Assembly: GCA_902801885.1 (NCBI GenBank)
Contig: CADCJX010000024.1
Coordinates: 1 to 37,285, forward strand
DNA: 37,285 bases
Source of the DNA: an uncultured Bacteroidia bacterium
Lineage (GTDB): Bacteria > Bacteroidota > Bacteroidia > Bacteroidales > UBA932
Direction: 5' to 3'
Shown here in pieces: positions 1 through 598 of this stretch. The notes under the pieces were generated by a model, which saw only the letters and a program-made list of their open reading frames with translations, made no database searches and was not told the origin of the DNA. Position 1 is the first letter of the stretch. Every line of letters starts with the position of its first letter. A program made the translations under genes and the position numbers.

Positions 1-126
1 CTTTTCAGGGCTGATGCTATACCCGATGCTGGAGCAGAACCTGCTCCCGTTCAGATAAATGGAAGTGTAGATCGGATGGTCGCCTTTCTTGTCCGCTCTT
101 GTGAAGAGATAGAAGGTTACAGCCAT
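1..126 (-). CDS. tyrosine integrase, N-terminal fragment (cut by window edge)
   Basis: Reading the minus strand from the ATG at 126 gives 42 codons without a stop to the window edge. The peptide starts MAVTFYLFTRADKKGDHPIY and contains YLNGSRFCSSIGYSISPEK. This is the usual opening of the Arm-DNA-binding domain of Bacteroidota tyrosine recombinases (phage, ICE and conjugative-transposon integrases); the catalytic R-H-R-Y domain would lie outside the window. The gene points the same way as the tRNA-Leu gene and starts 150 nt beyond its 3' end, the common arrangement for an integrase beside its tRNA attachment site. The family call rests on recognition of this short N-terminal stretch only. Whether the full gene is intact cannot be seen here. 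Confidence 0.75.
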   Translation of the reverse strand, partial: MAVTFYLFTRADKKGDHPIYTSIYLNGSRFCSSIGYSISPEK

Positions 127-327: not shown

Positions 328-598
328 CTTGCTACTATGGCTTTTGCCACCAGACGAATCCTATTGTTGATTCAAATCCGTTTGTAGTCTGGACTATTCC
401 TTCATCATGGACGATTAACAACCGTCTTTAGATGTGTCGTGTCTAGTCTCTGCACCTTCCTTCTTTCGAAGACTTGGCTCAAGATTACCATCGGCATGAT
501 CCGTTAAGGCTTCCTTGAATTTACGACATTCTACATCCCTCCTTTCGGAGAGTGCACTCATTTTGTTCTTCCTCGATAAAAATCGTAAGAACAATCCT
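328..598 (-). ncRNA. group I intron (IC3-like) in tRNA-Leu(UAA), 271 nt
   Basis: The conserved group I core is present in order on the minus strand. P element AATTCAAGGAAGCC is at 521-508 and Q element AATCTTGAGCCAAG at 486-473; together they form P4 (TTCAAG/CTTGAG). R element GTGCAGAGACTAGACACGAC is at 455-436 and S element AAGGAATAGTCCAGAC at 402-387, giving P7 (GACTA/TAGTC). P2 and P6 end in GAAA tetraloops, and P3 can form from TGTCGT/ACGACA. The 5' exon ends in U (599) and can pair with an internal guide at 559-554 to give the usual U-G at the splice site. The intron ends in G (328, omega-G). No homing endonuclease gene is inside. The R, Q and S motifs match my memory of the cyanobacterial tRNA-Leu intron closely, so self-splicing is likely but unproven. 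Confidence 0.92.

Follow-up and report, generated by a model that had tools for sequence, protein, structure and literature searches.

A group I intron in the only detected tRNA-Leu(UAA) gene of an uncultured Bacteroidales bacterium: probable endonuclease-deleted member of a mobile lineage with relatives in viral contigs

The described systems closest to the locus reported here are group I introns of tRNA genes, namely the cyanobacterial-type introns of tRNA-Leu(UAA) and the Synechocystis tRNA-fMet intron, which has the ORF of the endonuclease I-Ssp6803I in P1. The excerpt of the 2007 paper cited here places I-Ssp6803I in the tRNA-fMet intron and counts about 35 group I introns then known in bacterial chromosomes (PMC1995217). 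In the sections of Edgell et al. (2011) cited here, the extension of an endonuclease ORF into the ribozyme core is called 'core creep'; five examples overlap the core by 0-81 nt, and the I-Ssp6803I ORF overlaps P1/P2 by 61 nt (Table 1, PMC3073962). For phages, an excerpt of a 2014 review states that all group I introns seen by then lay in protein-coding genes despite the many phage tRNA genes (PMC3984707). In the parts of two other papers cited here, introns of crAss-like phages are placed in core protein genes (PMC7886860) and every archaeal group I intron in an rRNA gene (PMC6125680).

Among the matches listed in a search of the open-access literature, judged by titles and the starts of abstracts, none concerned a tRNA-Leu gene of Bacteroidota split by an intron or a phage tRNA gene with a group I intron; subscription papers and preprints were outside the scope of that search. 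Nor was a description of the mobile, endonuclease-bearing, phage-borne forms of the lineage treated below found in the literature searched. We describe here a group I ribozyme in the only tRNA-Leu(UAA) gene detected in the genome of an uncultured Bacteroidales bacterium (UBA932) and read it, with a probability of about 0.85, as a copy from which the endonuclease has been deleted, in a mobile intron lineage that has phage-borne relatives and undergoes repeated invasion, decay and loss.

The window is the whole stretch of DNA that was analysed, 37,285 nucleotides of contig CADCJX010000024.1 (assembly GCA_902801885.1). On its minus strand, to which all feature coordinates below refer, ARAGORN in intron mode recognised a tRNA-Leu(UAA) gene at 632-275 (c[275,632]) split by a 271-nt group I intron at 598-328. 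The insertion point is after U34, between tRNA positions 34 and 35, so that the 5' exon (632-599) ends at U34; the 3' exon (327-275) does not encode the CCA. The splice junctions fall between GACTT and AGGATT on the 5' side and between GCAAG and AAAAT on the 3' side. Rfam model RF00028 matched 602-370 over its whole length (56.4 bits against a cut-off of 50, E = 6.9e-12), and our own model, R1, matched 561-383 with 196.5 bits, the window being one of the 19 training rows of R1. The fold of the intron RNA was more stable than those of all 200 dinucleotide shuffles (z = -3.79). In an alignment of 19 relatives, with the window as one row, 16 of the 44 predicted pairs had pair-keeping changes on both sides; by position these lie in what we take to be P2, P3, P4, P5, P6 and P8.

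Direct reading of the sequence located the remaining landmarks. The P1 loop (598-561) is a 38-nt stub made up of the 5' piece GTTCTT and TATCGAGGAAGAAC, the latter resembling the end of an HNH ORF found in relatives. The internal guide sequence GAGU (559-556), read as an invariant GAGT in the 19-row alignment, pairs with exon ACUU and provides the U.G pair at the 5' splice site. It is followed by the P2 hairpin with a GAAA cap (555-532), marked by covarying pairs, and by the 5' strand of P3 with P4, P5 and P6 and the P and Q elements (528-452; RF00028 and covariation, with helix names assigned by hand), P6 also having a GAAA cap. The R element GGTGCAGAGACTA, the 5' strand of P7, lies at 456-444 (sequence, RF00028 and alignment), and the S element GGAATAGTCC, the 3' strand of P7, at 400-391; the UAG of the latter is the frame's stop codon in part of the relatives. 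ARAGORN places the terminal intron G at 328. A vestige of an open frame, MSALSERRDVECRKFKEALTDHADGNLEPSLRKKEGAETRHDTSKDGC (561-418), matches the core-encoded tail of the relatives' HNH ORF on sequence comparison. By its core fold, its covariance match, the U.G pair next to the 5' splice site and the G that closes the intron, the window copy belongs to an established class of ribozymes, and its insertion site is an established one too. The initial annotation had given the host gene, coordinates and group I identity exactly, and the elements it had listed (P, Q, R, S, GAAA caps, terminal G and U-G pair) were recovered by sequence reading and covariation; the significant covariance-model match that it had looked to for support was found with RF00028.

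The window tRNA gene was missed by ARAGORN at its default settings and by the Rfam tRNA search, so that tRNA genes with such introns escape default annotation. The part of the tRNAscan-SE 2.0 paper cited here likewise describes that program as not meant for group I intron detection (PMC8450103). Directly 3' of the tRNA, window positions 1-126 hold the start of an integrase-like ORF on the minus strand (PF17293, Arm-DNA-bind_5, E = 1.5e-5), inside which the contig ends. The contigs of several relatives also end near this tRNA, which suggests an element integrated at the tRNA end.

The introns to which the window copy belongs, here called type A, are like the cyanobacterial-type tRNA-Leu(UAA) introns in host gene, U34 insertion, P1 pairing and overall core. 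They differ in the 5' strand of P7, the motif by which the two were sorted, which is GACTA in type A and GACTC in the cyanobacterial type; its pairing partner is the one we assume for P7. They also differ in length, the 65 parsed cyanobacterial-type introns being 220-465 nt long and the type-A introns with an intact ORF 705-752 nt. About 170 columns went into the intron trees, whose bootstraps are rough and unsettled and which have several long branches. The 99-row tree held 45 type-A introns after thinning and 25 of the 65 of cyanobacterial type, and the 72-row tree 14 of type A, 13 of those 65 and 28 viral introns; plastid introns were in neither tree. Cyanobacterial-type introns stood apart from type A in both, at 86/93 in the former and at 100/100 in the latter, where the long-branched L305 joined them. 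Descent from cyanobacterial introns was set aside on account of this separate branch. The likeness to the cyanobacterial and plastid intron that the initial annotation had drawn thus stood for the insertion site and did not extend to grouping with the cyanobacterial copies in the trees. One cyanobacterial-type tRNA-Leu intron (L143) came from a record titled as a Tatlockia MAG; it has the length and 5' sequence of L185 and L236 and is probably misbinned.

In many relatives about 500-530 nt separate the 5' splice site from the guide sequence, and this stretch encodes an HNH protein. Of 107 type-A copies parsed, 85 distinct ones were classed, and their P1-loop HNH ORF was intact in 22, decayed in 9, reduced to a stub in 4 (window included) and minimal in 50. 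The window copy has no intact endonuclease ORF, and its stub keeps scraps resembling both ends of the HNH insert. The HNH protein of the relatives is 183-209 residues long from the chosen Met, core-encoded tail included. The ORF of one relative (L094) matched Pfam PF01844 (E = 1.4e-5, 25.6 bits, curated cut-off 21.4), and the HNH ORF of the relatives matched PHROG 10822 (E = 4.3e-47). Foldseek against the PDB gave no match at E<=0.001, and searching the PDB by sequence produced a single match, at E = 0.12. A P1-extension stem (GTTCTT/AAGAAC against GCTCTT/AAGAGC) can be seen in the sequences but carries no weight here; the longest pairing was often a different stretch, and one covarying position was weak.

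The tail of the HNH ORF, LSALSEKRDVECRKFKEALTGNADGNLEPSL, is encoded inside the ribozyme, from the guide sequence through the Q/P6 region. I-Ssp6803I is a PD-(D/E)XK enzyme of a tRNA-fMet intron, whereas the ORF described here is of the HNH type in tRNA-Leu(UAA), and its overlap reaches Q/P6 or, in viral introns, the S element. Among distinct type-A introns, 83 of 84 keep the frame open up to a point no more than 20 nt from R, compared with 8 of 60 of cyanobacterial type and 2 of 9 others; conservation of the RNA may be a partial cause of this. Upstream of the guide, dN/dS (Nei-Gojobori) was 0.06-0.21 in the eight closest pairs, with a median of 0.086 over the 11 usable pairs of 231, the remainder being saturated or out of range. 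These low values make the ORF look selected. The lineage thus includes copies with an intact endonuclease ORF that looks selected, as expected of a mobile intron.

Two further lineages occupy the same site. Nine parsed type-B introns share the type-A junction, and three of them carry another HNH ORF in the P1 loop, the end of which overlaps the guide and P2. Two type-B introns from close host genomes, L280 (746 nt, with the ORF) and L281 (276 nt, lacking it), have cores that are identical by eye. Type C (L273 and L275) groups with L033 of another family (95/98, 99-row tree). In the HNH tree, the groups of lineages A and B differ; type-B HNH joins the free-standing L326 and L331 (96/95), and the viral L318, L320 and L322 join the free-standing L325 (97/92). 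These placements suggest that the HNH gene entered or left introns more than once. Bonocora and Shub reportedly proposed that free-standing endonucleases precede intron-borne ones.

Relatives were also found in viral contigs, the viral status of which rests on IMG/VR. A scan with one HNH protein yielded 32 loci, several of them mutual copies, and R1 detected introns in L317-L322 (114-145 bits), L337 (71 bits) and L329 (54.5 bits). Rfam at E<=0.01 gave no group I match in eight viral loci, in five of which R1 found introns. When ten neighbouring ORFs were compared with PHROG, the matches included a protease of phage type, methyltransferases, a ferredoxin and further HNH proteins, with no clear structural hallmark gene. 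A pattern scan of the viral contigs returned 72 stretches (45 distinct). Twenty-five of the distinct ones were parsed as tRNA introns, mostly of Leu(UAA), with some other anticodons where ARAGORN shifted the splice site; translations read by eye gave an HNH-like ORF on the sense strand in 15 of the 25, on the other strand in 1 and in none of the rest. Type A grouped with the viral introns L317, L320, L322, L444 and L429 in the 72-core tree (90/82). The nearest relatives of the window intron outside chromosomes thus appear to be introns of viral contigs, mostly in tRNA-Leu(UAA). Nine other viral introns (L410, L411, L421, L423, L433, L445, L448, L455 and L479) have a different HNH ORF located after R, which ends at the S-element UAG in six of them, and one viral contig (L441) has two intron matches on opposite strands.

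In four of the viral introns (L317, L318, L320 and L322), a single ORF, 277-285 codons long when counted from the chosen ATG, runs from the P1 loop through the core to the S-element UAG, so that only the stretch 3' of S lies outside it. Beyond R, this ORF adds a zinc-finger/HTH-like part in the P8 loop (domain names assigned by eye). Whereas the published examples of core creep overlap by 0-81 nt, the frame of these four introns crosses the core into a second part in P8. ARAGORN recognised tRNA-Leu(UAA) exons for three of the four (L317, L318 and L320) and none for L322; the ORF of viral L321 is shorter. The AlphaFold model of the L318 ORF (mean pLDDT 82.9, pTM 0.41) was confident for the HNH and C-terminal parts and low for the core-encoded residues 151-200, with block means of 42-67. 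A long frame open through the ribozyme by chance, with the P8 part a separate gene or not expressed, is an unlikely explanation that nonetheless deserves weight, since conservation of the core for RNA reasons would also keep a frame open, the viral protein is a prediction from sequence, and dN/dS after the core comes from one pair. Against chance, the frame is common to four distinct introns, and a comparable arrangement in two parts, with no ribozyme, is seen in the free-standing homologues L325, L333 and L330. The dN/dS after the core is 0.305 in that single pair (L318/L320), and the corresponding frame is open in just the 8 of 60 cyanobacterial-type introns noted above.

The intron ORF belongs to the sequence family of the PHROG 10822 HNH endonucleases, but most of the viral and phage relatives analysed stand alone next to tRNA-Leu genes, whereas the Bacteroidales copies are intron-borne. 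Of 21 distinct loci with a free-standing HNH gene, 15 came from viral contigs and 6 from annotated phages hand-picked from 224 matching records; the nearest tRNA called by ARAGORN was Leu in 17, compared with 23 Leu among the 80 other tRNAs there (p = 1e-6). The exceptions were L348, Dulem virus 42 (no tRNA), Enterococcus phage 113 and S-CRM01; for the last, ARAGORN calls Ile and the record annotates a tRNA-Leu beside the HNH gene. This HNH group accordingly seems likely to target tRNA-Leu genes. A rival reading is passive spread, in which the whole tRNA locus would have been moved by transduction or recombination with the HNH ORFs as passengers. The integrase-like ORF directly 3' of the window tRNA means that the locus may be a recombination site, and the 50 of 85 distinct type-A introns that have no ORF also speak for this reading; but the low dN/dS of the HNH ORF, the presence in one and the same loop of a different HNH group in each of lineages A and B, and the position of free-standing HNH relatives next to tRNA-Leu genes make such an origin rather improbable.

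At the level of the order RF00028 matched in 4 of 393 genomes, at that of the family in 71 of 398 and at that of the phylum in 30 of 395. Of the four matches in the order, one is the window itself and another is a Leu(UAA) intron of G245; the third, L032 of G255, lies in a tRNA-Ile gene whose anticodon was parsed as UAU. The fourth (L034 of G126, 27.7 bits) was rejected as a probable false positive, for it has no tRNA and reads as coding sequence. R1 at E<=0.1 had no match in L034, L117 or L119. Among the phylum matches, ARAGORN parsed Arg(UCU), Gln(CUG), Thr, Leu(CAA) and Leu(UAA) genes, among others, and several remained unparsed. Introns of 194-246 nt in tRNA-Arg(UCU) recur in other families of the phylum (L291, L294-L296, L299-L301 and L315).

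The family sample includes 161 genomes of one genus, presumably Cryptobacteroides, and 62 of these have a tRNA-Leu(UAA) intron, which is type A in 50 and of another type in 12 (10 B-like and 2 type C). Both exons were parsed in 57 of the 62 (46 of 50 type A and 11 of 12 others); one B-like case (G778, L279) is a model match only. An uninterrupted anticodon arm (<=3 mismatches in 30) was found in 84 genomes, of which 2 (G698 and G780) also have an intron, where MAG contamination may be the source; 17 genomes have neither. When R1 was run on 33 genus genomes of no-match or unclear status, it found introns in 15, 12 of these at 61-91 bits. Two further RF00028 matches in the genus, in G735 and on contig C33 of G710, are other introns. 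That contig (L053, L121 and L285-L287) has four group I matches, two of them parsed in tRNA-Gln(CUG), and G710 has its type-A intron elsewhere.

To compare intron and host histories, 59 genomes were screened for rpoB, of which 56 yielded it (G623, G662 and G680 lacked a match); G664 and G717, with split matches, were omitted, which left a tree of 54 genomes. The four intron states need 12 changes on this tree, against a minimum of 3 and a mean of 22.5 after shuffling, and none of 200 shuffles was as low. The states are therefore patchy yet clustered on the host tree, and the clustering indicates that much of the inheritance is vertical. In a Mantel test on 22 of the 23 type-A rows (G688, which has no full intron, was omitted), distances of the type-A core and of rpoB were uncorrelated (rho = -0.08, with 721 of 999 permutations as high). 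On the rpoB tree, the sister group of the window genome and G700, both of them with type A, consists of G599, G629 and G516, which have no intron. The initial annotation had left two options, lateral transfer or a distribution wider than recognised, and both have substance: the intron is common in the family by RF00028 and R1, and the uncorrelated distances are a sign of lateral spread.

Old vertical inheritance, with the intron present in the common ancestor of Cyanobacteria and Bacteroidota, kept here and mostly lost elsewhere, is very improbable. It would explain the same gene, same position and similar P1 in the 65 parsed cyanobacterial-type introns, as well as the detection by R1 of all five cyanobacterial-type loci tested (87-105 bits). 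Yet those introns form a branch of their own (100/100), joined there by L305, a long-branched intron from Bacteroidota; the order has its four matches in 393 genomes, the probable coding false positive and the tRNA-Ile intron included; intron and host distances are uncorrelated; and three lineages, A, B and C, occur at one site within one genus.

The Rfam tRNA search of the window's own genome gave 56 matches, and ARAGORN, applied to the loci and regions covering them, named Leu tRNAs with anticodons CAA, CAG, UAG and GAG and none with UAA besides the interrupted gene. A second intact copy, which the initial annotation had regarded as the sign of a pseudogene, was thus not found by either search. 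The assembly is 99.24% complete in 31 contigs, a degree of fragmentation that could hide a second tRNA-Leu(UAA). Because no other UAA Leu tRNA was found, the interrupted gene is probably the sole reader of UUA codons, and splicing would be required. That it is instead a pseudogene and the working gene is absent from the assembly is scarcely credible, for, despite the 31 contigs and the gene lying 275 bases from a contig end, the exons fold into a full tRNA-Leu cloverleaf (ARAGORN), completeness is 99.24%, and intron and uninterrupted gene are mutually exclusive in the genus except in G698 and G780.

In the mechanism that we propose, the precursor would fold and a guanosine would attack after U34 at the U.G pair in P1; the freed 5' exon would then attack after the terminal G, and the ligated tRNA would read UUA codons, all of this chemistry being deduced from the anatomy of the intron. 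The window copy would be an endonuclease-deleted descendant of a mobile lineage, in the mobile members of which the P1-loop HNH endonuclease would cut intron-less tRNA-Leu genes and repair would copy the intron in. Phages, which have related endonucleases and introns at tRNA-Leu genes, may be both the reservoir of the lineage and its vector. In the genus, introns with a full, decayed, stub or minimal ORF occur side by side with empty sites, which fits repeated invasion, decay and loss. Weighing against this reading are the clustering of intron states on the host tree, the 50 of 85 distinct type-A introns that lack an ORF, the 4 of 21 free-standing HNH loci where ARAGORN puts no tRNA-Leu next to the gene, and the lack of a PDB match in the fold search. 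A more specific proposal, for and against which we find the case evenly balanced, is that one mobile intron family, dedicated to tRNA-Leu(UAA), is common to phages and Bacteroidales and has its reservoir in the tRNA genes of phages. Its fullest form would be overprinted by its own endonuclease gene, with HNH in the P1 loop, the core as translated linker, a zinc-finger/HTH part in the P8 loop and the S-element UAG as stop, and the chromosomal copies, that of the window among them, would be successive reductions of it.

The viral tRNA-Leu introns run against the picture, given in the excerpt of the 2014 review cited above, of phage group I introns in protein genes only (PMC3984707), and the overlap of ORF and core renders 'core creep' testable. 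For the gut bacteria concerned, a presumably indispensable tRNA gene appears to be invaded by a selfish ribozyme that is worn down until the gene is freed again, with all stages present in one genus.
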